Shown piece by piece: positions 1-27,791 of a stretch of 28,080 bases of DNA. The translations under genes were made by a program, and so were the position numbers. A model generated the notes under the pieces. The model was not told where the DNA came from and did not search any database. It was given only the letters and a program-made list of their open reading frames with translations. The DNA lies in IMG/VR virus record IMGVR_UViG_3300010300_000079, positions 1 to 28,080 of that record; one strand, written 5' to 3'. Within the stretch, counting starts at the first letter, position 1. Each line of letters begins with the position of its first letter. Origin of the DNA: a virus.

Positions 1-1315
1 CACCGCTATTTCCCCAAGTGTTGTAAAGGCGGAAGGTTTGGGCGTTGGTGTTACGGCGCTGGGCAAGGGTGTCGGCGTCGTCTCTCCATAGTTTTATATC
101 ATAATTTCCACCTTGGACGTTAAAGTTCTGATCCGACCAGCCAAAATAAGCATTTGAGTTTAAAGCAAAACCCGTGCCTGGCTGAAACAGCCACTGCCTG
201 TAGCCTGAACTTACATTATTAGCTAAGTATGTTACTCCATAATCAATTACATAAAGCCTATTGATGTTGACTCTGTAATCGTTTGCGACGGCACTTATTC
301 CAGTTTCAATATCACCCTGCCCACTTGTGGTCTTTAGCTGACCTGCTTTTGTTACATTAAACTTGCTACTTCCACCCACCTGCAAATCAAGCAGGTTGCT
401 ATCAGAAAGACTTGCAGTATCCGTTACATTCAGTTTCAACCCAGTAAATACTGTTGAAGACTCGTTCCAGTCAAGGTCAACATTAAAATCACTACTAGCA
501 GCAAGTTTTCCAGCATTATTATATTGAACATTACCAGTAGTCCCTGCAACGAGAGCTATTGTTCCAGTGGCATCTGGGAAAGAAATATTTCTATTATTTG
601 TTGGTGTAACATACTGTATAACAGTATTATATGGTCCAGTATCAGATAAGATAAGACCATCAGATGCTTTAATACTTCCAACAACTTCCAATTTCTCTGT
701 TGGAGTTTCTGTTCCTATTCCAAAGTTTCCTACATCAGCATTAATGCCAGCAATAATAGTTCCATCAGCATCTACATCAATATAAGGAAGACCTGCAACA
801 TTATTGACAGAAAATAAAGAACCAGTAGAAAGATTATTTGTAACAGAAAATAATTGACCTTCTGATCCTTCAAATGATATAGTATCTACGCCAACATCTG
901 CAGCACTATAACTAATTACATTTATATTTTCAAATAATAAATTACCAGATAATTTGATACTGCCATCAATATCAACTTTCTGAGTTGGATTAGTTTTACC
1001 AATACCAATGTATTCTGTTTGACCAAAAGGTGCTAATAAAATAGTTCCATTTGCATTTACATCTAAACTCGGAACACCAGTTGCATCATTAACAGAAAAA
1101 ATAGATCCAGATGTTAAATTATTACTGATAGAAAATAAAGTGCCAGCAGATCCTTCTAACCTTAGTGTCCCGTTGTTTATAGTATCGTAAGGAACAAGAT
1201 CTATTGCAGTACCTACAGATACTTTTCCAGTGACATTCAAGACGCTATCGGTATCTGTATACCCCGAAATACCAACGTCTAATTTTCTTACTCTGGAGGA
1301 AATAAATGGTGTCAT
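1..1315 (-). CDS. Tail fibre-like structural protein, 3' end outside window (partial)
   Basis: An open frame starts at the ATG at 1315-1313 and reads through 438 codons to the window edge without a stop, so the C-terminus is missing. It begins MTPFISSRVRKLDV and has two tandem copies of a ~75-residue unit (residues ~54-128 and ~149-223), each with an EGSxGxLFSxxNNL start, an FSVN stretch and an IGxxxPTxKxxxxGSIK end. The latter is a beta-rich shaft motif common in marine phage fibres. Near the window edge it reads DIKLWRDDADTLAQRRNTNAQ, a motif I know from marine phage fibre C-termini. The role is probably host recognition at the baseplate or fibre tip. It follows the 109-aa gene after a 24-nt gap. 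The last visible part is clearly richer in GC than the rest. Fibre-like is well supported; which fibre it is cannot be told. Confidence 0.75.
   Translation of the reverse strand, partial: MTPFISSRVRKLDVGISGYTDTDSVLNVTGKVSVGTAIDLVPYDTINNGTLRLEGSAGTLFSISNNLTSGSIFSVNDATGVPSLDVNANGTILLAPFGQTEYIGIGKTNPTQKVDIDGSIKLSGNLLFENINVISYSAADVGVDTISFEGSEGQLFSVTNNLSTGSLFSVNNVAGLPYIDVDADGTIIAGINADVGNFGIGTETPTEKLEVVGSIKASDGLILSDTGPYNTVIQYVTPTNNRNISFPDATGTIALVAGTTGNVQYNNAGKLAASSDFNVDLDWNESSTVFTGLKLNVTDTASLSDSNLLDLQVGGSSKFNVTKAGQLKTTSGQGDIETGISAVANDYRVNINRLYVIDYGVTYLANNVSSGYRQWLFQPGTGFALNSNAYFGWSDQNFNVQGGNYDIKLWRDDADTLAQRRNTNAQTFRLYNTWGNSG
647..1156 (-). repeat. Tandem ~75-residue repeat in tail fibre shaft (two copies)
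   Basis: Copy 1 (about 1156-932) and copy 2 (about 871-647) encode matching units. EGSAGTLFSISNNL aligns with EGSEGQLFSVTNNL, SGSIFSVND with TGSLFSVNN, and NPTQKVDIDGSIK with TPTEKLEVVGSIK. A linker of about 20 residues separates them. This looks like an internal duplication building a fibrous shaft. Confidence 0.7.
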
Positions 1316-1339
1316 TTTAATTAGGTACTTTTATCGTAA

Positions 1340-1669
1340 TTAATTTAATGTTTCCAAAATTGAAGAAATAAACTTCAAGTTTGTTGCATCACTGCCAGAT
1401 AATACTAGTTGGTCACCTGTTTCCAAAAATAATTTTCCAGATATTAAATTAATAGTATCATTACCAGCAATTGGGAAATCTTTTACAATTTCAGTATCTG
1501 TTCCCCCTCTCCTATGTAGTAAAGTTACGTCATAAGATGTAGAACTAATATTAGCAATTTGTCCCAACAAAACAACTCCAGTATATCCAGTTGGAGCTGT
1601 ATATACAACTGTTGGTGATGTTGCAACGATTTCAGTAATAGTTTTATAATTATTTAATTTTAATGCCAT
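1340..1669 (-). CDS. Small beta-rich virion structural protein (109 aa)
   Basis: The 109-aa product starts MALKLNNYKTITEIVATSP and is an alternation of short hydrophobic beta strands, for example GYTGVVLLGQIANI, SYDVTLLHRR and LFLETGDQLVLSGS. It has no membrane segment or signal peptide. Similar short proteins lie beside tail fibre genes in marine T4-like phages and are usually called virion structural proteins; this is from memory of the family, not a search. The start is well set: an AGGAGG ribosome site lies 8 nt upstream of the ATG, formed by the last codons (Leu-Gly-Gly-stop) of the upstream 594-aa gene, with only 4 nt between the genes. It could be a fibre connector or decoration protein. 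The exact role is unknown. Confidence 0.7.
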   Translation of the reverse strand: MALKLNNYKTITEIVATSPTVVYTAPTGYTGVVLLGQIANISSTSYDVTLLHRRGGTDTEIVKDFPIAGNDTINLISGKLFLETGDQLVLSGSDATNLKFISSILETLN

Positions 1670-1673
1670 TTGA

Positions 1674-3458
1674 TTAACCTCCTAATGCGAGAATGAATGG
1701 TGTTACTGTAGAGAATAAACTCTTTGTGTAGGCTTCACCAGAGATATTTCCTGTACTCTGGTTAATAACCACACCATCACCAATTCTAAAATTTCCTGAT
1801 TGATCTGTGCTAGTATAAACTACTATGCCGCCATTAATACTAACAATTTCATTTTCTTGAATAGTTATTCCGCCATTTTGCGGAACAGCCGTAGTAATAT
1901 TTGTTCCAGAACCAATTTGTTGGAAAGCATGAGAAGAAGCAAGTAATCTAGATTGTTTGTAAAAATAACAAGTATCAGAAATAGAAAGCGCTAGTGGAAT
2001 TTCATTAACAAAAGTAACATCATATACATCAGTAGAAACTTCTGTTGATTCAGATACAATAAAATATGAAGGAACCATTACAGCATCTGCAGTCGCTGTT
2101 ACACCACTAGTTGGCGGATCAATTGTAATAGATGGTGGAGTCACTGAATATCCTCTGCCAGTAGAGACAATATCAATTGCAGTAACTACTCCATTTGTTA
2201 CTTCAGCAATTGCTTCTGCATTAATTCCCCATGCTTCTGATTGTGTTCCGATTGTAACGTTTGGAACTGATGTATAACCACTTCCACCATTTGTAATGTC
2301 AATTCTTAACAACTCATAATACAAAGTGTCAAAATAAACAACTTGACCATCAAATGGTCTAACATTGTTTACTTGTGCAGTTCCTCCATTTTGATAAGTA
2401 TGAACAATATCAGATGTTCCTACATTTACAACAAATTGATTTGCTGCAGGTGTAGACTCTACATTAAAAATGTATCCATAAGCACCAGAAGGAAATGCTT
2501 GGTTTGATGTAGAACCACCAGAAGTGCAACTAAAAATTAAATTTTCTACCTTTACATCCATTCCAACTTGGAATCCATGATTAGCAGTTGTTGTTGCAGT
2601 TAACAATCCAGTTACATTATCATATGTTGCACTACTAATACTGAAAGAAGTTGTTGAAATATCAACTCTTACAGTATCTGCATCTGCAGTTGTTGCAAGA
2701 GAAACACTGCCAGTATATTTTAAATCACTAACACCATCTGCAATGAGACCATAATTTCCAAAAGAAGAATTAGAATTGGTTAAGTCGCAACTTCCACCAT
2801 TCAAACATTCAATAGCTTTATTTGTGCATATGGTAAACATAGAAACAAGTTGTGCATATGATTCATTACAAATACTTGCTCCTATTCCATTTGCGTTGTA
2901 TTGAGTATAAGAATCAACAACCATTGATTTCAAAGGACCTATGGCATCATCACCGTCTACTTTCAATCCAATACTATCTGGGACAAAATTTGTGCAATTT
3001 TGAATGTATGGAGATTGATCAATATAAGGAGGATCATTTGGATTAAATGATATCATTGCTCCTGTATTGCTGCTACCAACAAAAGACATGTTGGCAATGT
3101 AGCAACCGTTTCTTACATAAAATAAATCTCCTGGACTATTTGCAGGAGTTACAGTAACTTCTCTTAAAGAAGTTCCTATAATACTAACTTGATCGGGAAG
3201 AACTAATGGATTGTTTTCTACATAAACACCAGGATAAACTTTAATTGTGATGTTGTCTATGTCAACTACTGCCAATGCACCTTCAATCGTTGCTTTTGCA
3301 GTTGCTTCAGTTAATCCATCATTCGCATCATCTCCTTGTTTTGTAACATAAATAATATTTACAGGTGATGTACCATTAAGATACGCCACCATGTCATTAA
3401 TTTTTTGCCTTTGAATTTCAAAGGTGTCAGTCTTTAATACTGGAACTGCTACTGCCAT
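1674..3458 (-). CDS. Beta-helix tail fibre-like protein (594 aa)
   Basis: The N-terminal ~40 residues form a short head. A right-handed beta-helix (pectate-lyase-like) segment follows: IIYVTKQGDDANDG, then IKVYPGVYVENNPLVLPDQV, VSIIGTSLREVTV and NGCYIANMSFVG (residues ~45-130). This is the usual opening of cyanophage fibre-like proteins of this type. Residues ~390-457 carry the GSGYTSVPNVTI / GRGYSVTPPSITI beta module that also occurs in the wedge proteins of this window. The C-terminus (IGDGVVINQSTGNISGEAYT) looks like a fibre tip or trimer end. The protein probably forms a short trimeric fibre or adhesin, possibly binding surface sugars; no catalytic residues are evident. The start overlaps the upstream 70-aa gene by 32 nt and has no clear Shine-Dalgarno, but the conserved N-terminal layout supports it. 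Confidence 0.75.
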   Translation of the reverse strand: MAVAVPVLKTDTFEIQRQKINDMVAYLNGTSPVNIIYVTKQGDDANDGLTEATAKATIEGALAVVDIDNITIKVYPGVYVENNPLVLPDQVSIIGTSLREVTVTPANSPGDLFYVRNGCYIANMSFVGSSNTGAMISFNPNDPPYIDQSPYIQNCTNFVPDSIGLKVDGDDAIGPLKSMVVDSYTQYNANGIGASICNESYAQLVSMFTICTNKAIECLNGGSCDLTNSNSSFGNYGLIADGVSDLKYTGSVSLATTADADTVRVDISTTSFSISSATYDNVTGLLTATTTANHGFQVGMDVKVENLIFSCTSGGSTSNQAFPSGAYGYIFNVESTPAANQFVVNVGTSDIVHTYQNGGTAQVNNVRPFDGQVVYFDTLYYELLRIDITNGGSGYTSVPNVTIGTQSEAWGINAEAIAEVTNGVVTAIDIVSTGRGYSVTPPSITIDPPTSGVTATADAVMVPSYFIVSESTEVSTDVYDVTFVNEIPLALSISDTCYFYKQSRLLASSHAFQQIGSGTNITTAVPQNGGITIQENEIVSINGGIVVYTSTDQSGNFRIGDGVVINQSTGNISGEAYTKSLFSTVTPFILALGG

Positions 3459-3639
3459 TTTTTATTAATTGACTTAAAAGATTTTTTATTTCAGAAATCT
3501 CACTCTTCAAAGTATTTATATCATCTATTGCAGTATTGAGTTTCTTTGAAATCGTTTGTTTACTAGGTTTTTCTAGGTTAATAATAGCACCAGTAGAGGG
3601 GTCTCTATACAACCCCTCATGCCCTTTTACTTTTAACAT
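3427..3639 (-). CDS. Small coiled-coil protein between DUF4815 gene and fibre (70 aa)
   Basis: The 70-aa protein has two parts. A conserved-looking head, VKGHEGLYRDPSTGAIINLE (residues 4-23), is followed by a helix with hydrophobic heptads (AIDDINTLKSEISEIKNLL, residues ~37-55) predicted to form a coiled coil, then a Ser-rich tail. The GLYRDPxTGAI head recurs in small proteins of T4-like marine phages, in my recollection. Its ATG shares one base with the stop of the preceding reading frame (TGATG), so translation is probably coupled. Its 3' end overlaps the 594-aa fibre gene by 32 nt. Position and coiled coil suggest an adaptor linking fibre to baseplate, but that is inference. Confidence 0.65.
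   Translation of the reverse strand: MLKVKGHEGLYRDPSTGAIINLEKPSKQTISKKLNTAIDDINTLKSEISEIKNLLSQLIKNGSSSSSIKD
3515..3522 (-). promoter_or_regulatory. Possible T4-type late promoter (TATAAATA) before the beta-helix fibre gene
   Basis: The minus strand reads TATAAATA, a perfect match to the T4 late -10 element, 57 nt upstream of the 594-aa fibre start. It lies inside the 70-aa gene (codons for Asp-Ile-Asn), and a random 8-mer of this kind is expected several times in DNA this AT-rich, so support is modest. Confidence 0.35.
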
Positions 3640-5225
3640 CAGTATGAAGCAACAGCTCTTAAATCTTGAATCTTTGGAACATACGCTGGATCATCTGTTT
3701 TCATAACGATTTTGATTCCATACGAACCAAATTCTGTCAAATCAGATGCACTATATTTTAGTTCTTGATAAGACTTTTGATCTTCAAACTCTCCAGAAAT
3801 AGAATTTGTTGCTGTTGCAATTTCATCTGTATCTGGATTGCCATCAATATTAAATGGAACCCAGTTAATATCTTCAAAATTATCTTGTTCGGAAGAGTTC
3901 TTTGTTTTGTAGAAGACTTTGACATTATTAACGTCTCTCAAGTTAACAGTAAGTCTTACATCAATTGAAGATCCGCTATTATTTAATGAAACTTCTTTAG
4001 TAATATATTTTGCAATAGAAGAACTATTTTTTGAACCAGTTTCATCAATATAATCTACACCATTTTCAAACTCCATTGATGAAACTTCAATAAACTGAGA
4101 ATCATCCGTTGCTAGGTTTGATTTGTATAAAAAGTCTCCTACTCTAAAAATATCATTTAATTGATTTTCTGCAACAGAATTTCTAGAGAAAGAACTTCCA
4201 ATTGTTATAATGGATTCAAAATCGTCATTAATAGGTTGTTTGTTATTCTCTACAATTAATTCTCCAAATTGAGGATTCCAATAAACAACCTTTCCAGATA
4301 TTTTATTTTCGTATTTAACTGTGTTATTACTACTATTCATAGATGTAACAGTTGATCCAATTGTAAAATCTGGAATAATTTCTGTCACATTACCAGAAAT
4401 ATTAATAGGATTATTGAAAGAATTGGTAGAGAATTTCAATTCTTCATTTGATTCAAATGCATTGATGCTTGTCAATTTAACAGTTACATTATTACTTTCA
4501 TACTTAATTACTCGTCCTTTTGCTTTTGAGGATACTCCTTCAACAGTTTGATTTAAAGTAATATCAGTAGATTCATTTCCAGTAATAGTAAAAGTGTATA
4601 TTGAATAAAACTTAAGTTTTTGATATCTCTTACCAAAACGATCTTCTTTGCCACTTGAATTTTCAACTCTATTTGTTGAAGTTTTAATTGAAGATGATGT
4701 AACATCTATTACAGGAGACAAATAAGAAACGCTTGATGAAAGTTGAATTTTATACGTCAACGAATTATCAATATCATTTAGAGTTTTATTAATATCAGAA
4801 ACAACTACCTTTTGATTCGTAAAAATATGTTCTTCATTTAAAAATGTTTTTTCATAATCAGATATTGAATAAGAAGTATAATTTTGTGTTGAAGAATCAA
4901 CAGGGACAATATTAGTAGTTTTTACAAATGAATTAATAGATGTCCCCTCAGATTGAATATATTGAACTTGTGCATATAGTTTTTCATATTTTCTGTTATA
5001 AGAAGCAATTAAATTGCCTCCACCAAAAACACTACTACCAGCTCTGTAAGGAATTTGAATATTGTATGAATCAACACCTGCATTTGTTACTTCAAATAAT
5101 GTTGAATTCAATGTTTCGGATGTTACTCCGCCAACATCTTGTGCATTATTAAAGAATACATAAGAATTTCCTTCATCTTCAAATCCATGATTTTTATGAT
5201 TAACTTTTACAATAGCGTTGTTATT
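3639..5225 (-). CDS. C-terminal part of the DUF4815 structural protein, separated by a frameshift
   Basis: This frame is open from 5225 down to the stop at 3639-3641 (528 codons). The only usual start codon in its first part is a TTG at 5111 with no good ribosome site. Coding-like sequence extends upstream of it in the same frame: IVKVNHKNHGFEDEGNSYVF, GGVTSETLNSTL, then DSYNIQIPYRAGS. This is the 'NHGF...GD...GG...L...DSYxI' unit expected inside long phage baseplate proteins, and it continues directly from the end of the 2175-aa frame. The rest is beta-rich (SYLSPVIDVTSS, NNVKVFYKTKNSSEQDN) and ends YVPKIQDLRAVASY, which looks like a natural C-terminus of the DUF4815 family. I read it as the missing tail of the upstream protein in the -1 frame. 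It ends in a TGATG overlap with the 70-aa gene. Confidence 0.75.
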   Translation of the reverse strand, partial: NNNAIVKVNHKNHGFEDEGNSYVFFNNAQDVGGVTSETLNSTLFEVTNAGVDSYNIQIPYRAGSSVFGGGNLIASYNRKYEKLYAQVQYIQSEGTSINSFVKTTNIVPVDSSTQNYTSYSISDYEKTFLNEEHIFTNQKVVVSDINKTLNDIDNSLTYKIQLSSSVSYLSPVIDVTSSSIKTSTNRVENSSGKEDRFGKRYQKLKFYSIYTFTITGNESTDITLNQTVEGVSSKAKGRVIKYESNNVTVKLTSINAFESNEELKFSTNSFNNPINISGNVTEIIPDFTIGSTVTSMNSSNNTVKYENKISGKVVYWNPQFGELIVENNKQPINDDFESIITIGSSFSRNSVAENQLNDIFRVGDFLYKSNLATDDSQFIEVSSMEFENGVDYIDETGSKNSSSIAKYITKEVSLNNSGSSIDVRLTVNLRDVNNVKVFYKTKNSSEQDNFEDINWVPFNIDGNPDTDEIATATNSISGEFEDQKSYQELKYSASDLTEFGSYGIKIVMKTDDPAYVPKIQDLRAVASY

Positions 5226-5228
5226 TTA
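5207..5228 (-). other. Frameshift junction splitting the DUF4815 gene
   Basis: The upstream frame ends with TLFKITTLL and a TAA at 5209-5207. The downstream frame has its own stop at 5228-5226 and is open after it, reading NNNAIVKVNHKNHG. The switch (-1 or +2) must therefore fall in this short window. Adding one A in the A-rich stretch just after TTTAAAATA would give a smooth reading, LFKINNAIVKVNHKNHGF. No in-frame X XXY YYZ slippery heptamer is present. A one-base deletion, real or from sequencing, is the simplest reading. Confidence 0.75.
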
Positions 5229-8200
5229 AACAGCGTTGAAGTAGCAGTTGATTCAGATATAGATGAGGTTTCAATTGGATCTATTTCTAAAGATTCATAC
5301 CCCAAAGATTTTTCTTTAATGAACAAGTCTGCTGTTCTGCTAATATCAAATTCTGCTCTGTATAAAGTAAACTTTGCATCTTCAAAAAGATCTTCTGTCC
5401 AATTGTCAATATTTTGTGATTTATATAAAGAACCTAATGCAGGTTGAGTTGTAACTGTAATGTTTGTAGAAATGTCAGAATCTCCTAATTTAGAAGACCA
5501 CATTTCATATTCAGTAGAATCAGTTTCTACAACCAAAGCATAGTTAGCATTATTTTGAAGATATATTGGATACTTAAAGTTAAATCTAGTTGGTGTGGTA
5601 GAATCGGTCACTGCAAATGTATCAAAGTCATCATTTGCTACACCCATAACAACTGCAGGAGTATCAATTTCAATCTTTGCTTTAACTACTGCTCCAGCAG
5701 CACCAGATCCTGTTCCTCTTACAACGATTGATGGGTTTTCTGTATAACCGCTACCAGGAATTACTAATTCTGTCGTATATACTTTACCACCAGAAACTTT
5801 ACATGAAGCTGAAGCAGATGTTCCTCCTGGTAATTGTGGACTTTCAATACTCAAAATAGCATTATCATAATTATTACCTACAGAATCAATTAAGATTTCA
5901 GAGATTTTTCCAGAATCTTTTGCAATAGTTACAGTTAAATTAGTGCCTTTTAGATTATTTTCAGCAGTTAATGTATCACTCGTTAACTTTTCATTTTGTG
6001 TGAAGTAAATTCCATTATAATTTGAAAGAACTAATGTATAAACTTGTTCATTATTTAAAGTTACAATTCCACTAGCAGAAGCAACAACCTCTGAATTATT
6101 TTTATCATATACTTTTGCAAGTGGACCAGAAGCACCTGATTTTTCTCCATTGATAAGTTCACCAATTTTTAAAGGTAACGAACCACTTGTATATACTTTT
6201 AACTTAGTTTCTGGATTCAAAGAACACTCTGTTCCTGGAATAATATTTTTTGCTGGTTTTCCTAAATCTACATTGGTTAGATATACTCTAATTGGAATGT
6301 CAGAACTCTTTTTGTTAAAGAAAAGATCTACACCAGTAGCAAAAACACCACCTTTATAATTTTCAATTTTGAAAGTTTGTGCCAATGGATTTGGTCTTAC
6401 TTCAATATCAGTATTGCTATCAATTAATTGCACTCCTTCATTTGATTTAAAGTAAGATGGTCTTGTTGAAATAATTGAAGAAGGACTTTGTGGAATAATA
6501 CCAGTAGCATAATATTTTACTTCTGCATAAGTTTCTACAGTATTTTTACTTTCATTTTCAGAACTTGATGTAAATCTGATAGTTTTTATACCAGTAGGGA
6601 ATCTTAATGATTTTCCTGTAGTATCATAAGTTATAGATTCTATATTATTATTCCAAGAAGATCCTTCTACTGGAGCAGAACCTGCTGGAATAATAATGAC
6701 ACCACTTGCATTTCCATTTTCATCTGTAACAATAGATCTTCCAAAAGCAGTAGAAGAGTTTCCAGCAATACCAGTAAACTTAAAGTCTGGATTAACCCAT
6801 CTTCCAATATTTGTTCCTTCCATGAAAACAAATATTTCAGTTTCTGGCTTCATTCTACCAACAGTAAATTTAACTGCTTGGGTTCTTGCATAATATTGAA
6901 CAGCATTCAATACAGATTTGTTTCCAATAACATTTCTATTGATACCTTGCGCAAGTTCATAATTTTGAGGACTTATATTAGAACTACTGGAAATCAAAGC
7001 TAGATCTACACTTGTCTTAGATTTCTCTGCATTTAAAGAAGTAAGAGGATCAATATTATAGAACGTTCTATCTGTTCCAACCCAGTTAACAATATAATTA
7101 TTGTAAATACTTGATATAGCAGAATCAGTAGTTTGTTTTGCAGAAAAAATAGAGAACAATCCAACATTATCATTTACAACCAATGGTTTTGTAGTATTGT
7201 CATACCATTGATCTACTTGTGGACTTAAAGATCCATCACCAGCATATTGAATTACTACAAATGGATTTGGATTAATTTTCTTTGTAGCAAATTGATTTTG
7301 AACAAGATTTAAATTTGTAAATGGTAAAGTAACAATACCATCATTGTTAACATATCCACTAATTGATCTTTCTTCATTTGATTGATATAACTCTTCAATT
7401 TTTAAAGAATCTTCTTTTGCTTCTGGTCTTAATACTGATTGTTGTGTATCAATAGAACACTTGTAATCAATAGAAGATAAGTTACCAACTTTATGAGATT
7501 CAAAATTGTCAACAATAAATCCAACTTTAAATTTATCAATGCCAACTTCATCTTTGATTTGCATGTTCAAAGCTTGTTGCTCTAGGATGCTTAATGTAGT
7601 ATAATGTTCAAGACGCTCAATACGCTTTTCTAATTTTCCAATATCACGCATCGTATATCTACGATTGTCAACTGCAATAATTTTTACATCTTCACTTGTA
7701 TTTGTAAATGCAGGAATATAAACATAATACAAAGGAATACTATCATCTATAGATTCTGGTTTTGTTGGGTTCAAAGAAGAATTGCCCTTTTTAACAACAA
7801 AATCTCCTTTCTTAGTCAAGAATATTCCATCAATTCTATCTAAGTATTGTGATTGACTGAATGAAATTGTATAATCAATATTTGAATCAATTGCTGGAGT
7901 GCTACTTGATACACCACCAGGTCCATTGAAACTAATAAAATTGGACTTGCTTAAAATAGAATTATCTTGGAATCCAGTTATTAAAGATGTTGTATCTACT
8001 TTTGGTCTAAAATCAACGACATCCTTGAGTAAAAGATTGCCATAAACAGAAGAATTAAAATCTGGAATTTCTTCTTCGCCAACACCAGCTTCATGTAAGT
8101 ATGAATCTACAGTACAGAAATCACCTTGAGAATGTTCAAAATAATCAAATCCAACAACTAATTGACCGTTTGGTGATTCAAATCCAGGTTTCAATACAAT

Positions 8201-11200
8201 TCTTGAAATATCATAAAAAGTATCTCTTTGACCATTATCAAATGTAAATCTATTTGTTACGTCTTCGCCACTAATCAAATTTCCACTTAGATCAACCACA
8301 GGTGGATTTGCTCCGCCAACATAAACATATCTCAACTTGTATGCATCAGAGTAGCTAAATGATTCGGTATCTTCTGTGTCATAATCATATCCTCTAAGTG
8401 GAATTACTCTATCTCCACTAGATGAAATAACAATTCTCTTATTAATAACCGAAGTTTTCAATCTTGGTTTTGCCTTTGAAACTTCTAATGTTGCTGTTAG
8501 TTTTAATGTAGGGAAAGGTGCTGAAAGATTTTCTCCAAAGAAATTACTGGGGAGATTGATAGTAACACTTCCAGAAGTAAGACCACTTGTAGAATCTGTA
8601 GAAGTAGAGATATCTACATAACTTTCATCAATATAAAGAATATCCCCATTTTCTACTTCAGTAGATGATCCTTTATCTAAAACAGTAATAATATAATTTT
8701 CTTTTTCGTATTTTACAAATCTCTGTGTTCCAAATGGCAATTGAGCAGCAAAAGTTAAATTGCCTCCAGAAGAAGCAGCTTCAACAACAAAATCTCTTCT
8801 AAAATAATATTTAAATTTAGAATCGGATACATCTTTTACTAAAGATTTTGTTTGCTTACTACCTGTTGGGAATAGTAAAGTTGATGTCGTTGTATTTGAT
8901 TGTTTTGGTCTTACAGAAACAACAGATGAATTTAATACATTTTCTTGTAAAACAGAATCTAAATATATTCTTGTCTTTATAGTTCCTTCTGGGCTAGTTG
9001 TATACTGTACAATAGACTTATTAACATTTCCAGTAGAATCTGTAAATTGAATTAGGTCACCCTGTTGCAAATATTTTGATGCATCATCACCAAAACCATT
9101 TGATTCTAGATACTTATAACCCTTTGTCCCAGAAAAAGTAAATGAAGTTACTTGTGTAACATTAGAATATTTTTCTCTATTCAAATCAATATCAGCACTA
9201 AACTTATTCGTATTACCAGATCCAAATACAGAGTATAAAGATTTTATATTGTTTGGAGAATAGTTAAGTACTGTATTTTTAAACAATACAGCAACAATTG
9301 TTGCTTCAGGATTTGGAGATGCTGTAGGTCCACTAACTAAAGCTTTTACTGTAGGTGGAGTTGCATAAGTTTGCAACGTTGCATTTCTATCTGCAATTTC
9401 AACTTTATACAAAGTTTGGTCTCCAGAAATCCCTAATGATATTTTAGAGTTATCATATTCAACACCATTCAAAGAAATTGTAGTGTTTTCTGCAGGATAT
9501 CCAGATTCTTTTTTCGTAACAATAAAATGAGAGATTGTATTTTCAATTGCGATTCTTCTTACGTTGTTGTCTTCATCGGAAATTGTTTCACCTGGAAGAA
9601 AATTGCCAGATAAAGTTTTTACGAATAACTGATTTGCAAAAGAAAATGCTCCTCCAGAAGTTCCTTCAATGACGCCATAGGCACCACTCTTTGATCCTGT
9701 AATATATTTTCCAGGGAGAAATGTATTTGATGCAACTTCATCATCTAATGTTATTTTTGTAAAGAATATTGGATTGAAGTAACTATAAGAAAAAGTGCCA
9801 TCATATCCATTAATACCTTTAGAAATAATTTTATCAACGTTTGAATTAAATCCTGCAGGAAGATCTTTAAAGTAAAAATTCTTTGGTTTTGAAATTCCAA
9901 CCAAAGGTGTAATTATTTCATTATAATCTCTAATTGCAGCAAATTCATTAGAACTTGCCTCTGCATCTTCTTTTGATCTATAGAGAAATGTTTGTCTTAC
10001 CGATACACTTTCATTATATTCTTTAAAGAATATATTTAAATCATTTTTATTTCCATAAACTGTTAACTCCATGTAATCTGTTTGACCAGACCCATCAATT
10101 TCTGGTCTCTTTACAAGAGAGTATGCAATAGACTTTACTGAAGAAACTTCAGTTTCTGATCTTTTAAACCAAAGATCTCCAATTAAAGTTCTAAAATCAT
10201 TAGATGCATCTACATCACCAAAGTTAATTGAAGAATCTAAACTCAATTCTAAGTAAATTGTTTTAATACCAATGTCTTCATTTGAGAACGTAGTAGTATC
10301 TGAAATGTAAGAATATTGTTCTCCTCTTCTAGAAACAGTAGTTTTGTAATCATTTGAAGCTCCATTGAGTCCAATACTACCGTCATTAAACGTGGAGTAT
10401 AAGTATACATCTGGATATGAAGTCAATTCAGATCCATCTGTATTTAAAGGAATAGATCCATATGTGTTTGTAATTTTAAAGTCAGATACTCCCCTTCCCT
10501 TTAATGTAATATTATCTCTATCAAGACTATCCCTTGCTTTATCAATCTCTAAAAACTTTGTGTCTTTATTAACAATTTCATAACCTTTTACGTATGCTTT
10601 TCCTGGTCCAATAGAAGCAATCATTTTTTTCTTTGCTTCTTCTAGAGAGATACCATTAACAGTGTTATCAGAATTTAAATCATAAACTCCATTATTAGTA
10701 TCATTCTGATAAAATTCTCTAATATTTACAGAAAAATTATCTACTACATAATCACCAGATTCGTCATAAGTTCTTTTTGCTAACGTATCTTCAATTAATG
10801 TATAATCTGCTTTCTTAATCTGCTTTTCAATAATACCAGATTTTACTTTTAGTATCTGAATAAAGTTTTTATCTGTAATTTGAGAGTAGTCATACTTTTC
10901 TAGAGAAAGAGATATTTTTAATCTACTTGCTCCAGGAGATGCAAAGTTTGAATAACCTCTTGCATTATCATATAAAGAACTATCTTCCTCAGCAAAAATC
11001 AAAGATTCTGAAATTTTGAATCCTACTTTTGCTGAAGGTCTGTTATAATACTTGTTTATAATAAGTAGTTCTTCATCATTGCGAACAAAAAATCCATTAA
11101 CAAAATAGATACCTTCTTCAACTTTTACAGCTGAAGAATGACCCATTGCAGGACTTAATTCATTAGATACTTCTCCAGTATCTGGATCTACAATAGATAT

Positions 11201-11734
11201 GCTAGTTGGGAGGACGCTACCATCGGTTCCAACGATCAATAGAGGAGTATTGATACCATTTACTACTTCAAGTGTTTCACCCTGCCTGAAGGTCCTCTCA
11301 GTAGCAGCATCGCCACTTGTGGTATACTTTACGTAAATTGTATCCGCTTCTGATTCTGTAGCATAATCTGTCTCAATAACAGTAGCTATAACTCCAGATG
11401 TAATACCTTGTAATTTTTCACCTACTAGTTGTTTTATATCATACTTACGATAAACAATTTCGCCATCAACATTAACTGCAACTTCTGATACAGAAGATAA
11501 TTTTACATAATCTAAATTATTGTTTAAACCAACTTCTCCAGGTACAACAAGTTCTCCTTGTTTAAACTGGAACTTGCCATAACTTTCAATTTGATTTTGC
11601 AAAATAGACTGCAAAGTAGTAAGTTCCCTACTTTGGATAGAATATCCAGGTCTAAAAAGAACTCTGTAAAAGTTCTTGGATGGATCAAAATCATCAAAGT
11701 AGGGATCTACATTGAGGTTAGTCTTCTGTGGCAT
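5207..11734 (-). CDS. DUF4815-type baseplate/tail structural protein, N-terminal 2175 aa
   Basis: The N-terminus (PQKTNLNVDPYFDDFDPSKN, then FRPGYSIQSRELTTLQSILQ and GELVVPGEVGLNN) is the hallmark of the DUF4815 family of phage baseplate or tail proteins. Around residues 1355-1390 lies a predicted coiled coil: RRYTMRDIGKLEKRIERLEH, then TLSILEQQALNM. Residues ~1950-2015 hold the GSGYTENPSIVVRGTGSGAA beta module shared with neighbouring proteins. Near the end, FEDAKFTLYRAEFD is typical of the family just before its C-terminal domain. The frame then stops at TLFKITTLL, while family-like sequence continues in another frame; the intact product would be about 2,700 aa. The gene sits after gp8, where T4 carries genes 9-11, so it probably connects the wedge to the fibres. 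The ATG follows a 42-nt gap after gp8 with no clear ribosome site. Confidence 0.85.
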   Translation of the reverse strand: MPQKTNLNVDPYFDDFDPSKNFYRVLFRPGYSIQSRELTTLQSILQNQIESYGKFQFKQGELVVPGEVGLNNNLDYVKLSSVSEVAVNVDGEIVYRKYDIKQLVGEKLQGITSGVIATVIETDYATESEADTIYVKYTTSGDAATERTFRQGETLEVVNGINTPLLIVGTDGSVLPTSISIVDPDTGEVSNELSPAMGHSSAVKVEEGIYFVNGFFVRNDEELLIINKYYNRPSAKVGFKISESLIFAEEDSSLYDNARGYSNFASPGASRLKISLSLEKYDYSQITDKNFIQILKVKSGIIEKQIKKADYTLIEDTLAKRTYDESGDYVVDNFSVNIREFYQNDTNNGVYDLNSDNTVNGISLEEAKKKMIASIGPGKAYVKGYEIVNKDTKFLEIDKARDSLDRDNITLKGRGVSDFKITNTYGSIPLNTDGSELTSYPDVYLYSTFNDGSIGLNGASNDYKTTVSRRGEQYSYISDTTTFSNEDIGIKTIYLELSLDSSINFGDVDASNDFRTLIGDLWFKRSETEVSSVKSIAYSLVKRPEIDGSGQTDYMELTVYGNKNDLNIFFKEYNESVSVRQTFLYRSKEDAEASSNEFAAIRDYNEIITPLVGISKPKNFYFKDLPAGFNSNVDKIISKGINGYDGTFSYSYFNPIFFTKITLDDEVASNTFLPGKYITGSKSGAYGVIEGTSGGAFSFANQLFVKTLSGNFLPGETISDEDNNVRRIAIENTISHFIVTKKESGYPAENTTISLNGVEYDNSKISLGISGDQTLYKVEIADRNATLQTYATPPTVKALVSGPTASPNPEATIVAVLFKNTVLNYSPNNIKSLYSVFGSGNTNKFSADIDLNREKYSNVTQVTSFTFSGTKGYKYLESNGFGDDASKYLQQGDLIQFTDSTGNVNKSIVQYTTSPEGTIKTRIYLDSVLQENVLNSSVVSVRPKQSNTTTSTLLFPTGSKQTKSLVKDVSDSKFKYYFRRDFVVEAASSGGNLTFAAQLPFGTQRFVKYEKENYIITVLDKGSSTEVENGDILYIDESYVDISTSTDSTSGLTSGSVTINLPSNFFGENLSAPFPTLKLTATLEVSKAKPRLKTSVINKRIVISSSGDRVIPLRGYDYDTEDTESFSYSDAYKLRYVYVGGANPPVVDLSGNLISGEDVTNRFTFDNGQRDTFYDISRIVLKPGFESPNGQLVVGFDYFEHSQGDFCTVDSYLHEAGVGEEEIPDFNSSVYGNLLLKDVVDFRPKVDTTSLITGFQDNSILSKSNFISFNGPGGVSSSTPAIDSNIDYTISFSQSQYLDRIDGIFLTKKGDFVVKKGNSSLNPTKPESIDDSIPLYYVYIPAFTNTSEDVKIIAVDNRRYTMRDIGKLEKRIERLEHYTTLSILEQQALNMQIKDEVGIDKFKVGFIVDNFESHKVGNLSSIDYKCSIDTQQSVLRPEAKEDSLKIEELYQSNEERSISGYVNNDGIVTLPFTNLNLVQNQFATKKINPNPFVVIQYAGDGSLSPQVDQWYDNTTKPLVVNDNVGLFSIFSAKQTTDSAISSIYNNYIVNWVGTDRTFYNIDPLTSLNAEKSKTSVDLALISSSSNISPQNYELAQGINRNVIGNKSVLNAVQYYARTQAVKFTVGRMKPETEIFVFMEGTNIGRWVNPDFKFTGIAGNSSTAFGRSIVTDENGNASGVIIIPAGSAPVEGSSWNNNIESITYDTTGKSLRFPTGIKTIRFTSSSENESKNTVETYAEVKYYATGIIPQSPSSIISTRPSYFKSNEGVQLIDSNTDIEVRPNPLAQTFKIENYKGGVFATGVDLFFNKKSSDIPIRVYLTNVDLGKPAKNIIPGTECSLNPETKLKVYTSGSLPLKIGELINGEKSGASGPLAKVYDKNNSEVVASASGIVTLNNEQVYTLVLSNYNGIYFTQNEKLTSDTLTAENNLKGTNLTVTIAKDSGKISEILIDSVGNNYDNAILSIESPQLPGGTSASASCKVSGGKVYTTELVIPGSGYTENPSIVVRGTGSGAAGAVVKAKIEIDTPAVVMGVANDDFDTFAVTDSTTPTRFNFKYPIYLQNNANYALVVETDSTEYEMWSSKLGDSDISTNITVTTQPALGSLYKSQNIDNWTEDLFEDAKFTLYRAEFDISRTADLFIKEKSLGYESLEIDPIETSSISESTATSTLFKITTLL

Positions 11735-11776
11735 TTTACGAGTCTATCTACTTTTGTTATTAATAAACAGACTTAA

Positions 11777-13585
11777 TCAGAACTCTATAACTAGTTTGAT
11801 ATCTTCAATCTGATCAGGAGCTCTCGTGATTAGTCTTCTATTCTCTATGTATATGACATCTCCGCTATTATTGTCAATTTCAGGAAGCGAAATGCCATTA
11901 GTAAATGTTCCGAACAAACTTGGACCAGATGCAGCGTTATAAGTGTTATCAATAGTTCCTGCAGTAACAGAATTAGTTCCATCAACAGTTGCGGCAAGTG
12001 AAGAATCAAATGCTCTTACAACACCATTATCTTTGTGATATTCTGTAGATTGGAATATTTTTAGTACACCATTGAAAGAACCTACAGTATCTGGTTCCCA
12101 AGAAACAACTGTTCCTTTTGCAGTTAGTCCACCACCCAAATCTTGAGTTACAACTTCATCTACAATATAATCAGCACCAGCTCCTGTAATCTTTAATGCA
12201 GTCAATCCATTCAAGGTGTCTGCAATTGCAAGAGATCCATTTGAGGTTGGGTCTTGAATAATACCAATTCTACGGAAATCATTATCAACAGGGAAATCTC
12301 CACTTCCTTCATTTGATGCCAAACGAATGTTTGTTAGAACTCTCTTTCCATTCAATTCTAACTCCATATCAGCACCGTATCCTCCCTGAGGTGGAATTAC
12401 AACTTCAATATTTGCTTGACCACCTGGATTTGCTGGTGTGGTCAAAGTAGGGTTGCCAAATAGTCCATTGGCAGTTGCACCAGACCCTGTACCAGTAGCA
12501 AATGTAACAGATCCGTATGTATAACCAGAACCTCTATTAGTTGAATATGTTTCTACAGAAGTAATAACATTGCCACTAACAGTAATTACTGCAATAGCAC
12601 CAGATCCATCGCCAACAACTGGAGCATAATAAGTTCCATTAGTCAATCCAGTTCCTTCATCTTCAATTACATATGCATCAATTGCTCCATCAACAACCTG
12701 TGTTGCTAAAACATTTGCTCTAGTTGCTTCTGTTGGCAACACAATTGGCATAAAATCAGTTGTGAGGAATCTCATAACGTCATCTGTTGGAATAGTATAC
12801 ATATATTTCCAAACATACGTACCAGTAGATTCTCTAAACAATCCTGTGCTAGAATTATAAGTTCCTACAGATGGAGTAATAGAAGGTTCTTCAGTTGATT
12901 GTGATCCATTTGAGTTTTGAACACAAGACCAAACTTGATAAGAAGAATTCATTACATAATATTTTGCAGAAGAAATTGATGGAGCTCCATTTGCCGCTGT
13001 CTTACCAGTTCTTCCAGTAGAAACACCTGAGTAGTCTGGTTTCCACATATCATAGATTGTGCCTGCAATCCAATTGTATCTAGTTACTACAGTTCTAACA
13101 TAATCAGATGAAATTCTTTTTGCAGAAATTAGGTCGTCATAGACAGCATATTTTTCTGTCTGGTTATCTAGTGGTTGAGGTGGAATTTCATCGGTAGCAT
13201 ATCTGTAAACTCCTGTTACAGCTTGAGCACCAGTGTTAACTCCGCCCGAGTAACCAAGTAAAGTTGAACCAACACTTGGTGTGCTAGAGATTCCTGCCGC
13301 ACCATTTACATCATAGAGAAGAAGACTTTCTTCAAAAACTTGTCTTACTTTTGCTCTAAAAGTTGAAGATCCGTAGTTAGCACCGACGAAAACTTCGTCT
13401 CCAACATTAAATGCTGTAGCATTTTGACTGTAAATTTCTAGATATGCGTCCCATCTTTGAGGACGACCTACAAAGAAATACATTCTAGTTCTAGCGGTAT
13501 CAGACTCTCCACTGCCTTCAGTAAAAGACTCTATAAACTGCTTCGCATTAAAAATTCTAAACTTTTCTGAGATGATGGCAGGCAT
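11777..13585 (-). CDS. 8: Baseplate wedge protein gp8
   Basis: The start MPAIISEKFRIFNAKQFIES followed by RTRMYFFVGRPQRWDAYLEI matches the T4-like gp8 opening (SxKFR...NF, then a strand ending in GRxxxW). Residues ~170-270 hold further gp8 signatures: IYDMWKPDYSG, YYVMNSSYQVWSCVQNSNGS, STEEPS and TYVWKYMYTIPTDDVMRF. At 602 aa it is almost twice T4 gp8 (334 aa). The extra length is mainly glycine-rich beta sequence after residue ~290 (GDGSGAIAVITVSGN, GSGYTYGSVTFATGTGSGAT). In T4, gp8 dimers sit in the outer wedge and help transmit fibre signals. A perfect TATAAATA lies 30 nt upstream, so the gene probably has its own late promoter. Confidence 0.88.
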   Translation of the reverse strand: MPAIISEKFRIFNAKQFIESFTEGSGESDTARTRMYFFVGRPQRWDAYLEIYSQNATAFNVGDEVFVGANYGSSTFRAKVRQVFEESLLLYDVNGAAGISSTPSVGSTLLGYSGGVNTGAQAVTGVYRYATDEIPPQPLDNQTEKYAVYDDLISAKRISSDYVRTVVTRYNWIAGTIYDMWKPDYSGVSTGRTGKTAANGAPSISSAKYYVMNSSYQVWSCVQNSNGSQSTEEPSITPSVGTYNSSTGLFRESTGTYVWKYMYTIPTDDVMRFLTTDFMPIVLPTEATRANVLATQVVDGAIDAYVIEDEGTGLTNGTYYAPVVGDGSGAIAVITVSGNVITSVETYSTNRGSGYTYGSVTFATGTGSGATANGLFGNPTLTTPANPGGQANIEVVIPPQGGYGADMELELNGKRVLTNIRLASNEGSGDFPVDNDFRRIGIIQDPTSNGSLAIADTLNGLTALKITGAGADYIVDEVVTQDLGGGLTAKGTVVSWEPDTVGSFNGVLKIFQSTEYHKDNGVVRAFDSSLAATVDGTNSVTAGTIDNTYNAASGPSLFGTFTNGISLPEIDNNSGDVIYIENRRLITRAPDQIEDIKLVIEF

Positions 13586-13614
13586 TTAAAAAATCTCTTC
13601 TACAATTTCTGATA

Positions 13615-13622
13615 TATTTATA
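13615..13622 (-). promoter_or_regulatory. T4-type late promoter before gp8
   Basis: The minus strand reads TATAAATA, identical to the T4 late promoter -10 element, in the 47-nt gap between the giant wedge gene and gp8. The gp8 ATG lies 30 nt downstream, leaving room for a short leader. As in T4, such sites have no -35 box and depend on a phage sigma factor and sliding clamp. The placement between genes makes this the most convincing promoter of the window. Confidence 0.75.
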
Positions 13623-13632
13623 CAATTAAGCA

Positions 13633-16600
13633 TTAAAAGGTTCTGATTAAATCTCCAGCATCATGTGGTTTTGCTGTAGTTCCGTCTACACCTCTAGTAA
13701 CTCCAATAAAACGATCTGTTAATTTAGATGTATATTCAATTATTTCATCACCAAGTAAAAGTTTTCCTGATGCTGCAAATCTACTAGTGTCTGGAACGTA
13801 TATTGTATTATCAGTTGCATTTACTGCAATATCTAGATATGATGCAAAATTTTGTATTGATGGATAAGCAGAATTAAATCTAAGATCAAGTGTAGTATTT
13901 ACACGAACAGTTCCAGGTTCATCAAAATCTCCAATTGTCAAATCTGGATATAGATTTGAATAATCTTCAATTGTTAGTAAAGAAACATCTGAGTATCCAG
14001 TTTCAACAAATTTAAATCCTTCAAAAGTTCGTAAACTATTTCCTAATATATCTTGATTATAAAAATCTGGATATTCATTAAATGCTTTGTCAATAGATCC
14101 AAGCAATCTTGTAAAGTTTATAATTGTTTTATCAATAGAAACTTCAACAAGTTTTACATCAACTTCAACAACATTAACAGCAGTGCTGAAAGTAGTTGAA
14201 GACATTGATATTTCTTTTGCAGAAACATCAATCTTACTTACAATTTCATGAGAAACAGAAACATCTAACTCATTTTCAATAGTTATTTGATTAATACCTA
14301 CAAATTCATTATTAAGTTCTGCAGGTGAAGAAACAGAAGCATATAATACAACTCCATCTGGTTGATATCCGCCAACTATTGCTGTAATTGTTGATGTAAC
14401 AAAATTACTTGATTTTACATTTGTTTCTGTAGGAATTTTAGAGAAACTAATATAATAATCAATCTTTCTATGATCTTTATCTCTAAAATATCCACGAGAA
14501 ATTACTACTTTTGGTGGTTGTGTATATCCAGATCCAGGATTTGTTAATACAATATCAACTACCATGCCATTTAATACTATGGCTTCTGCTTTAGCTCCAC
14601 CGCCATTATTATCAACAGGAATAAATTCAATTTCTGGTGGATACATGTATCCATAAACAGTTGATTTATCAACTATTCCAAATTCAGTATATAGATTGTA
14701 ATCTCTTTTATTCCAGACTAAATTAGAAACTGACCCATTTGATAGTTCAGCAACTATGCCTAAACCAATTCCTTTTGTAAATCCGTTATAATTAGTTGCT
14801 GATACTTTTGCATATATTTCATTATGTACAATAGTTCCAGGTCTAAAATCTTTTGAGAATACAGTATCAGGTATTGAAGTTATTTCTCTAAAGTCAGATT
14901 CCCCATCAATTTTAATCTTATCGCCTTCTTTTAAATTTGGAATCATCGATGGTTTTAAATCCCATTCTTTTTTAGCATGTGCAGTATCATATGCAAATGG
15001 AGAAGCAGTTCTTGGAAGTCTTCTTAGTCCTGTCTCTGCATCTAAATCATAAGTAAAATCTGCAGTTACTTCATTGCTTAATTGATAACTTACATTATTG
15101 GGATTGTTTAATGAACCATCATATGATAGAATGTGAGTTCCATTTGGATCCAATATTCCAAACTCATTGCCAACCACAATATTATTACTAGAAATAACAA
15201 AATCTACCCTATTTAAATTTTGATCAAAAAATACTTTTTTAATATGACCAATTATATTCAATTCTCCAGTAGTTGTATTTAATTCAAGCAATGTAGTACC
15301 ATTTACAACTTTAGAAAGATTGTAATTTGATGGTGCAAATAATTGGAAATATTGTACAATTTTATTATACTCTGTTGCACCTACACTAGAATCTGTAATG
15401 CTAAAATTGACTTTATTATAATAAGTTTCTGGCTCAAAATCATAGAAAGTTAATTTTTTCTCAATATCTCTACCATAGAATAATAAGATATCAACCCTTG
15501 GAGAAATTTGAGTTCCGTCATCAAGTATGTGATATGAAAGTGGTTTTTTAAATGTAATAGTGGCACCACTGATTATATAAGATTTTGATGCATTTTGTAA
15601 AACGCCATCTACAAAAACATACGCATATCTAGTATCATCAATTTTTCTTGGAATGTTTGTTTTACTATCAAAGATTAAAAATGGTCCAGTTTTTTTAATA
15701 GATACTCTTTCGTTATCTATTGTTAACGATTCATAACTACCAACTCTAGTAATAAAGGTTTTGTCAATAGCTATTGGTTCTTGTGTAGTTATAGAATTTA
15801 AATTTTGTTCCCATTTCGGTGCTTCTGTGAAAGATATAATATCTGGTTCATTTTCATCACTAGATCTTACAATGTTGTAAGATTTTGGCAATTGCAAAAC
15901 TCCATTTAAGAATACAAGAAGATTTTCATTTTCGTCTGTTTTAACTATAGAAGAGTCTTCATAATATAATTCGAATTCCTTTGTTTCGCCATCAATATAA
16001 TCTACATTTGTTTTAATTACAGAATTTACACCATTTAATAATACAGATTCCAATCCGCCGTAAAGAGACGAAATAGAATCTACTACGTCATCACATTCTT
16101 TTGATCCAATAGAATCATTATAATCTGGATATGATATCAATTTAGAATCTGCAATGATATCATAATTAGAATATGTCTTTCTATTTGTCCAATTTCCAGA
16201 TCTCTGACTATTTTCTGGTTCTGGTTGAACTAAACCAATGCCATTAAGAAGTAATGTCTTTACAATATTTGAATAAGAATCTAATGAAGATTCTACTTCA
16301 ATACATGATGCTAAGAATGGTTCTGGATCTGATAAAATATTTTGACCTGTAAAAGGTATTTCTGAGGTATAAGTTCCATTGGGCAATAAGGTTCTCATTG
16401 CTAAAACCATTAATGATACTGCATATTCAAATGCTTCAACAGATTCTGTGAGTTCATTATTAATAAATTTTAAAGTGTTGCCATTATAATAAGATTTTGC
16501 AAATTCAATTATCTTTTCAGTTCCGCCATATCTTAAAGAATAAACAACAGCATCCACTAGATAACCAGTATCTCTCTTACATTTTGTTTCGTCTGGTATG

Positions 16601-19600
16601 ACTAATAATGGATATTGTGCTTTAATATATCCAAGAGTTTCTTCTTGAATGTATAATTTATTTTTCTCAATTAAGTTAGACGCATCATAAAACGTTCCAT
16701 TGTTTATTTTACTTAAAGAAAATGTTACTTGTGGAATAGTAAAGAAAGATGTTACTGATGTTAAAGTAGCCGCTCCAACCTGTGCAACGTTAACATCACC
16801 AACTTCTATAATTCCTGTATCTTGTATTTGTACACCTGCATAAACTTCATTTAGTAAAATAATTACAGTTTGTCCTGGTTGAACATCTAGAGAATTTGCA
16901 ATATTAGAAATAAAAGAATTATTTGAAACTCTTACTTGAGTATCATTAACAATTTCAGTTACTGTAGTTCCTTCAGCATATTGAGAACCACTACTGATAT
17001 TCATTCCAATAACAATACCAAATGTAGAATCAACTTGAATAATATCAGTTTCATTATTTGGAGCAATTACTGCGTTTGTAACAGTATAATCCCAATTTCT
17101 TATTGCTGCTGCGCATAGTTTTGCTGCATATTTAAAAGCATCTAAAGATTCTGTAATCTGATCTGTAATATGATCTACTGTATTATTATTATAATAAGAT
17201 TCAGCTGCTGAAATGCTCTTAAAGTTTCCTCCAAATCTAATGTCATGTTCTATAGCATCTATAAAATATCCAATATCTCTAGAACACTTTTCTCTAAATT
17301 GGTTCCATGCAATGTTTGGATATTTTTCGGTAACATATCCAATAGATTCTTCAACAATAAATTGTCTATTGAATTTTATTTGATTTGCTGCATCTAACCA
17401 TCTACCATTTCTCTGGAAGAAATTTCTTACTTTCCTTAAATACTCTTCATTTAAAGTATCAATTTTGAATTTAAATGCTCTTCCATAAAAAGTTTGAGGA
17501 GGAACATTTTGACCTTCTGCTGTTCTTTCTCCAAGAGGAGCATCTGCAAAAGTAATGTTTGTTCCAGAAACTGTATATGCTACTTTTGGTTCCTGAACAA
17601 CTCCATCTAAAGTAATTAAAAGTTCTTCTTCATTATATGGTGTTAATGGATTGTTAGTATTTTTATCTTGAATTGTAAAAGTTTTTGTAACACCATCAAA
17701 TGCTGGAGATATACTTATTTCAGTAGCATATGTTTCTGTATTGTTTTGAGAATCAACTGAGACAGATCCTAATCCTCTTTCTTCATTAACATGATTATAA
17801 TTAACAATTGACTGCTTTATAAACTTGCTAGTAGAAAGATTTGATACCTGTTTTGGAGCAAGGTTTATAATACTAAAGTTCTTTAAATTAGCACTCTTTA
17901 CATCATTTTTTCCAAAAGATTCTATAACTAATTCTCCAAATAACTGGAATCCAGCTGGGTGAGTAGTTTCTTTAATTAAATTTCTCCAAACACTAATAGG
18001 TGTTTTTGATCTAATTACATACGAAAAATCTTGATAGAAATAAGAATCTGTTATTTTTTGAGAATTAGAACCAATTTTACCCTTATCAGATTTATAGTAT
18101 CCAATGTTATCATAATATGTCTTTACATTTGGAGAAAACTCTGACGTAAAAATATCAATAATCTCTGCAGGTTTTTTTCTAAATTCACTCTGGACTGAAA
18201 GACCTTTAATAAAACTTCCAGTAACGTTACGTAGTCTTATAATATTACTTCCCTTTTTCCATCCATTTTTTGCTACTATACCAGTAGCATAGACTACGCC
18301 ATTACTTTCAGATACAACCTTCTCTCCCTCTGTAAATGCATCTTCGTCAACATTAAAAAGAGTTAATGCAGTAGTTGACAAATACTTTCTGGATAAAGTA
18401 TCATCAGTATGATATAAGAATCCGCTATTTTCTATTTTTACACTTTCTGGAACGCCAATATTATCTGATTGGAAATATATTTTTACTGAAGTCTCTACAA
18501 TTTTTATTGATGGAGCACTATTGTATCTTCCGCCATTTTTTAAGAATACAGATACAATTTCACCATCCTTAACAAAAACATCTATTATAGCTCCAGAACC
18601 ATCGCCAATTACAACTGCTTTTGGATTAACATAGTTTTTACCTTTTTGAAGAAGAGTAAGACCAGTTATATTTTTTGATACTGGATTGTATTGAACATCA
18701 ACAGTAGCTTCTAATTCTCTGCTTGGAGCTACACCAAAAATAGATGGTACATTTTCATAACCATCTCCAGGACTATCTATTTTTACAGATTTAATTCTAC
18801 CTACAGCAAATCTATTAGTTGTAGAGTATTTAATTGTTCCTGATCCATCATATTGCGGAGTTGTTGTATAATCATAAACAAAAGAATTTTCTGTTGTGAA
18901 AACAATCTTCTTACGACCTTGTAATGGATCATTAATTATGTTAAAATAACTATCAGAAACATCAACATCATTATTTTTATCAAAGAAATAGTATCTTGTG
19001 TATTCAACTAGAGATTCATCTTTTACTAGAGCATTTCCATCAATAGCATTTCCAATAGGAGTTGATCCATAAAAATAACTAAACGTTTGTCCTGGTTTTA
19101 AAGTAATATAAGATCCATTTGCTCCAGGAGCAAAGTTTGACCTAAAACTATCTACAGCAATAATGTTTCTGTTGATACTTGGAGAAAATTCCAAGAAAGT
19201 ATTTGCCATAGACGAATGACTAGTGTCAAATTTATAACTATAATTTTTCTGTAAGTCTAATGTTGTTAGAATTTCAAAATTTGTGTTAGACTTAGAGTAT
19301 TCAAATTTATTATATAAAGCAATTAATTCTGATACTGATGCTGTCTTGGCAGGAGAACTTTGATCAGTAAACAAAGTATTTAAATTAATATTTCTTATAC
19401 TTGTTTCGCCATATTCATAATATAAAGTAAGTACTTGTGTATCTTTATCATATGACTTAACAAATGGATCTCCAGGATCTTGATCAAACAATTGTGTTCC
19501 TGGAGTAAAGCGATATTCAGATTCAATTAATTCGCATGTAGTGCCATTGTAATGATCTGTAATTAATGTATTATTTTGACCTCTTTCTACAACTACTTTG

Positions 19601-26034: not shown

Positions 26035-26042
26035 TATTTATT
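26035..26042 (-). promoter_or_regulatory. Late promoter-like element before gp25
   Basis: The minus strand reads AATAAATA (7 of 8 to the T4 late consensus TATAAATA), right at the end of the 72-aa gene and 25 nt before the gp25 ATG. The spacing is like that of the perfect element before gp8, which supports it as the start of a wedge-gene transcript. Confidence 0.55.
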
Positions 26043-26260: not shown

Positions 26261-26294
26261 AGCCCCCGCTATAAATTTGTTTTAATAGAACTTT

Positions 26295-26316
26295 TAATGG
26301 GGTTTCTATCCCATTA
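26295..26316 (-). terminator. Hairpin between the 167-aa and 72-aa genes
   Basis: A perfect 7-bp inverted repeat (TAATGGG / CCCATTA) with an 8-nt loop begins 8 nt after the stop of the 167-aa gene. No T-run follows on either strand, so it is a poor intrinsic terminator. It may instead be a processing or stability element. Confidence 0.3.
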
Positions 26317-26323
26317 CCTTAAT

Positions 26324-26973: not shown

Positions 26974-26975
26974 AA

Positions 26976-27785: not shown

Positions 27786-27791
27786 TCAGTG

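Follow-up and report, generated by a model that had tools for sequence, protein, structure and literature searches.

The window analysed here, 28,080 bases long, is the whole of one virus record, with an overall GC content of 31.9% and with its long open reading frames (ORFs) on the minus strand. It encodes a baseplate wedge cluster (PF09215 Phage-Gp8, together with phrog_438, phrog_219 and phrog_261, all described as 'baseplate wedge subunit'), and we take the wedge proteins besides gp8 to be of the gp6 and gp25 type; proteins of these three types thus stand together in a cluster of the T4-like cyanophage baseplate/fibre kind. Positions 1-4000 resemble 83 records at 60-80% identity, all of them bearing Synechococcus, Cyanophage, Marine or Prochlorococcus names, and none of them covers 80% of this region. 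Judging by gene content and by these resemblances, we read the window as a fragment that probably derives from a T4-like cyanophage. Near its other end, at positions 26042-27992, lie the short genes g72, g167 and g66, with a GC3 of 0.35-0.44 as compared to ~0.14 for the large structural genes.

At position 1, which is the end of the record, the window cuts through a tail-fibre ORF that has no Pfam family and for which PHROGs gave one weak family of no known function. The features discussed below are the following:

2..1315, minus strand: fibre ORF of 438 codons, cut by the contig end; its N-terminal part (934-1315) is ~94% identical to the fibre of locus L125
1340..1669, minus strand: neighbour gene of 109 aa (phrog_1276, function not assigned), used as a marker for finding phages with the same locus
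485..526, minus strand: linker QYNNAGKLAASSDF, the last part common to the near relative, from the alignment
2..478, minus strand: foreign, GC-richer module (codons 280-438), from the changepoint, relatives and composition
359..394, minus strand: block A, LLDLQVGGSSKF (DLQVGGSSKF), codon-conserved in the comparison between phages
104..358, minus strand: variable insert between the blocks, from the alignment of relatives
17..82, minus strand: block B, DDADTLAQRRNTNAQTFRLYNT, codon-conserved, with DNA matches to unrelated phages at 18-82

After block B, 16 bases of the window remain. The native part of the fibre carries a 120-nt repeat, at 755-874 and 1040-1159 (71% alike), of which a further relative is present in the fibre of the near relative.

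A composition break at a shared linker

The GC content of the fibre ORF is 44.1% at positions 1-478 as opposed to 33.6% at 479-1315, and positions 1-120 and 1-480 are the most GC-rich stretches of their respective lengths in the window (scan steps of 10 and 20 bases). The first-pass annotation had put positions 1-120 at about 52% and 661-720 at 37%, in agreement with our recounts of 51.7% and 36.7%, and the change from AT-ending to GC-ending codons that it described is likewise evident: codons 281-438 have a GC3 of 0.33-0.53 per 40-codon bin, with z 3.6 to 6.0 per bin relative to the GC3 that the other genes would predict for each amino acid, while the seven 40-codon bins upstream of codon 281 range from 0.03 to 0.28. 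A scan of codon usage along the gene, which had been proposed as a check, places the changepoint at codon 279 (window position 478), and none of 5,000 permutations reaches it. As the insert taken alone (codons 320-404) is also raised, with a GC3 of 29/83 vs 34/278 upstream (Fisher p 9.6e-6), the shift extends beyond the conserved blocks. With a finer segmentation, the first 52 codons of the fibre are also somewhat raised, to a GC3 of 0.31, over a background of ~0.14 for the fibre gene. The GC shift that had been noticed is confirmed, and what it marks is a mosaic junction.

The nature of this junction is seen in the IMG/VR record 3300044723_007303, which is 94.35% identical to the window across positions 933-17309. 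Its fibre has the N-terminal part in common with that of the window and, past inner repeats that differ, also the linker (V/I)QYN(N/D)AGKLAAS(S/G)(D/N)F, after which the two sequences diverge; the composition changepoint of the window lies two codons past this linker, and the relative, which continues differently, is without the window's segment. This supports an acquisition from another phage, as the first-pass annotation had supposed, and we read the shift in GC as the seam at which a piece of fibre was acquired horizontally. After its fibre, the relative has two genes of higher GC content, 418 and 654 aa long, in which DVASITG motifs recur.

For a survey of fibres at the same locus, 53 of 80 loci and the window were given; 31 were dropped because an ORF of 200 codons that starts with ATG was missing near the neighbour gene and another 5 for repeating the start of another fibre or leaving too little background, so that 18 distinct fibres were analysed. 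Fourteen are without a changepoint, and clear GC3 islands are found in the window, in the near relative L125 (codons 253-487, GC3 0.38, with flanks at 0.13 and 0.06) and in L143 (codons 309-534); in L136, there is a short island within collagen-like repeats. L125 and L143 are the two complete fibres among those with a clear island, and in both it is internal. These two islands begin at a linker of the GxVG(I/V)G type and then revert to native composition. Relatives of the near relative's own GC island were found in 4 of 27 stretches, one of which is itself.

The module family and its place in the fibre

A search for the domain in other phages had also been suggested, and the segment does have relatives elsewhere: a first search found them in 31 of 43 candidate stretches, and profile matches were obtained in 323 of 356 candidate IMG/VR stretches, 80 of which were kept. 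The module also occurs in 11 of 69 bacterial genome stretches, those of Polaromonas, Roseicyclus and a Verrucomicrobiales MAG among these, and a gp8-type protein is also found in 2 of the 10 carrier records tested. The plan of the module comprises TWN...TFTGxKxNVTDTAS, block A (DLQVGGSSKF), a variable insert and block B (RDAAxTLAQRNGTNAQTFRxYNTYTD), and block A, insert and block B follow one another in this order in the window. We also observed a sister module, with LLDLQVNG replacing DLQVGGSS and with the same block B DNA (L211, L212, L214, L215, L216, L217, L220 and L227), and, in a Verrucomicrobiales MAG (L113), an ORF of 1362 codons with four copies of block A, all of which have TTG CAG for LQ. 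In the named phages S-TIM5 and MW202483, an expression search found neither block and there is only a related stretch. No donor was found, the best match across most of the segment being at 42% protein identity; the 23-mer of the window's block B has no exact match in IMG/VR, and the segment has no plasmid match. An AlphaFold2 model of the module (48 sequences, mean pLDDT 68.3, pTM 0.44) had no PDB match in Foldseek at E up to 10.

The difference between module and background GC3 is +0.27 in the window and has a mean of -0.02 in 81 carrier loci, none of which reaches the window's value (83 loci were given, L097 and L098 were filtered out, and near-duplicate contigs were retained). Carriers are thus generally without such a gradient, so that the same gradient in vertically inherited homologues, which the first-pass annotation had named as the result that would refute it, was not found; an origin of the gradient in the module itself is rejected on the same ground. 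Module GC3 tracks that of the carrier with a slope of 0.61, the window having the lowest background and the largest excess, and the regression residual is larger than the window's in 6 of the 81 loci, so that its excess is not extreme. A shift of about this size is to be expected when such a module enters an AT-rich genome. GC3 does vary in other genes of the window too, but with no permutation reaching the changepoint, carriers on average so close to their background, and the segment absent from the 94% relative, it is hardly credible that we are looking at ordinary composition variation in a vertically inherited gene or at a property of the module itself.

The first-pass annotation had held the shift to fit a swapped receptor-binding tip, and of this reading the acquisition is supported and the tip is not. 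In all 64 closed relatives, the module match is followed by a further 56-527 residues (median 134.5; 71 distinct modules), the islands of L125 and L143 are internal, and the gene of the window is cut at position 1. A swap of the whole receptor-binding tip, in which the blocks would play no part in the exchange, fits the position of the segment, which lies towards the distal end of what is known of the gene, and the fact that there is no return to low GC before the record ends, but the residues that follow the module in its relatives and the internal islands of the two complete same-locus fibres make it distinctly unlikely.

Codon conservation in blocks A and B

At the DNA level, the segment has short matches to unrelated phages, among them one of 33 nt with 97% identity and one of 77 nt with 84%. 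The peptide of block B is TLAQRNGTNAQTFR, and its consensus TLAQRNGTNAQTFRxYNTY has the version TLAQRRNTNAQTFRLYNT in the window. We compared codon identity between phages with the expectation from each phage's own codon usage, for 69 of 84 loci (15 near-duplicates were removed by hand) in 35 clusters, and obtained 0.475 vs 0.312 expected for block A (z 21.0) and 0.478 vs 0.361 for block B (z 21.6). Conserved columns between the blocks have a z of -0.8, the D..L.R just before block B one of 0.7, and those after it one of 1.4; the stretch before block A is intermediate, being somewhat codon-conserved (z 8.3). In the six AT-rich clusters alone, codon conservation is weak (z 2.0 for A and -0.6 for B). 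The codon of the window is the commonest codon of the others at 9 of 12 positions in block A (3.1 expected from its own usage) and at 14 of 20 in block B (1.75 expected, p 1e-12), as compared to 7 of 30 elsewhere (6.7 expected).

A sample selected on protein sequence alone covers 76 of the 80 listed loci, from at least 120 stretches, in 38 clusters; among the matches listed, CGC encodes the block B arginine in 35 of the 38 clusters, against an expected share of 0.30, and in 5 of the 7 AT-rich ones (0.17 expected), and AAC is used in 33 of 38 (0.58) and GGC in 29 of 38 (0.41). A single 23-base version of block B recurs without mismatch in 17 contigs from 10 clusters, with a locus GC of 0.38 to 0.65; phages between 38 and 65% GC have the codons of the blocks in common. 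In cultured Roseicyclus, with a locus GC of 65%, block A reads GAT TTG CAG GTT GGT GGG AGT AGT AAG, nearly as in the window, and the arginine of block B is AGA, not CGC; block B of Polaromonas has GCC CAG CGC. As the usual block codons are thus found in cultured genomes, assembly error is not their general cause. For the window itself, a chimeric contig, in which the assembler would have joined two phages at a common stretch, might be suspected from its being a metagenomic fragment with the segment at the contig end; we hold this to be very improbable, given that the reading frame is open across the junction, that the junction falls at a protein linker also present in the near relative, and that cultured genomes contain the module as well as the block codons.

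The module could have been acquired horizontally and the codons of A and B nevertheless have been kept by something other than exchange, be it a DNA or RNA signal, co-translational folding, or a recent spread with slow amelioration. Blocks A and B also carry the most strongly conserved residues, and this, like the partial codon conservation before block A, speaks for such a cause. Against it, DTAS just before block A is equally conserved as protein and near neutral in its codons, and no alternative frame is generally open (at most 1/35 per frame). RNAalifold found no consensus structure, a test that says little, as random controls also gave 0.00.

Insert replacement and the proposed exchange

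In five pairs of phages that are 90-97% identical up to block A, the inserts are 19-33% identical and the sequences realign at block B (L061/L065-66, L047/L065-66, L047/L061, L054/L069 and L085/L237); of 8 pairs, 5 gave an insert identity, and L065 was represented by L066, to which it is 97.9% identical, where it gave none itself. The pair L067/L087 has the same pattern at the DNA level. In the comparison of L047 with L065, the sequence has been replaced on either side of block B, which itself stands as a 49-nt piece of 98% identity. Of the 16 pairs viewed, which were chosen after their DNA matches had been seen, three keep the insert and show no break at the blocks (L055/L058, L055/L059 and L085/L090). 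Across 150 of 167 loci, 56 alignment gaps remained after deduplication, and 27 of these have one edge no more than 30 nt from A and the other no more than 30 nt from B, where random placement gives 1.55; there is some circularity in this test, since an alignment gap has to close wherever the DNA is conserved, as it is at the blocks. Near-identical genes that differ between two conserved motifs are thus seen in the relatives; the window shows only the linker junction.

The same insert was not found in two different backbones in any of 47 insert-sharing pairs: in 36, the flank upstream is shared as well, and the remaining 11 pairs belong to a single phage group, where one of the contigs stops at that point. 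This absence speaks against the exchange and for other causes of codon conservation, but near-identical phages that differ just between A and B argue against them, and on the whole we regard such causes as rather unlikely.

Two other routes to insert variation found no support in the relatives. An invertible fibre segment or shufflon would require further insert copies, and within the stretches compared none of 105 inserts of relatives has an inverted or second copy in its own stretch. Diversity-generating retroelements act on a variable repeat of equal length by adenine-directed substitutions; the inserts are of unequal length in most pairs and share the low identity given above in relatives.

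We consider it probable that the fibre took up a module from a GC-richer phage and that A and B are joints for the exchange of cassettes. The native part of the fibre would then end with the linker, and the foreign part would start at window position 478. Upon co-infection, homologous recombination at A and B would replace the insert, or recombination would take place at one block and at a point beyond; the replaced insert would change the surface of the fibre, and repeated exchange would keep the joints alike. We infer that recombination acts at the two blocks, and the segment of the window may have arrived through them. The insert presumably faces the host, in which case its exchange would be expected to alter host range. 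By analogy with T-even fibres, homologous recombination at short joints is the likely mechanism. More tentatively, A and B could constitute a DNA-level coupling common to unrelated phages over a wide GC range, which would open a pool of inserts to any fibre gene with both joints and would keep the joints alike as DNA, not as protein alone; we regard this wider reading as possible but doubtful. GxVGIGT and other fibre linkers may belong in this category too.

Fibre mosaicism is well known. Exchange between conserved motifs was reportedly described in 1998 by Tetart, Desplats and Krisch for gp37, the distal tail fibre of T-even phages, and A and B are apparently other peptides than those motifs. 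As in T-even gp37, short conserved motifs within the fibre gene flank the exchanged segments; unlike in gp37, the codons of blocks A and B stay the same from phage to phage at anything from 38 to 65% GC, and in the relatives more protein follows the insert. With respect to T-even fibres, the novel feature is a pair of proposed joints whose DNA stays alike in phages that are otherwise unrelated. The question that this touches upon is how pieces of genes move in frame between phages of little DNA similarity, and short blocks that keep their codons suggest a testable answer, namely that phages retain the homology that exchange requires at the joints and nowhere else. If this is true, the blocks could be used to find exchangeable fibre inserts in metagenomes and to predict which phages draw on the same pool.

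Cryoconite phages with flexible gene modules have near-identical core genomes in which fibre regions are replaced by very different variants (PMC7468147). Near-identical genomes with replaced fibre regions are also what we see here; the parts of that account available to us make no mention of codon-conserved boundary blocks inside a fibre gene (PMC7468147). Distant Alteromonas phages have a common, multi-gene host recognition module (PMC10579305). There too, fibre parts have moved between unrelated phages, but whereas the Alteromonas module spans several genes, that of the window is a piece within one gene (PMC10579305). In the open-licence PMC literature, we found neither the peptide of either block nor a description of such blocks.

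Codon usage was also compared at GxVGIGT linkers, in a small sample of 13 clusters. Three of the six codons are above expectation, one is less clear and two are not; GGC (9/13), GTC (7/13) and GGG (8/13) look more alike between clusters than their own usage predicts.
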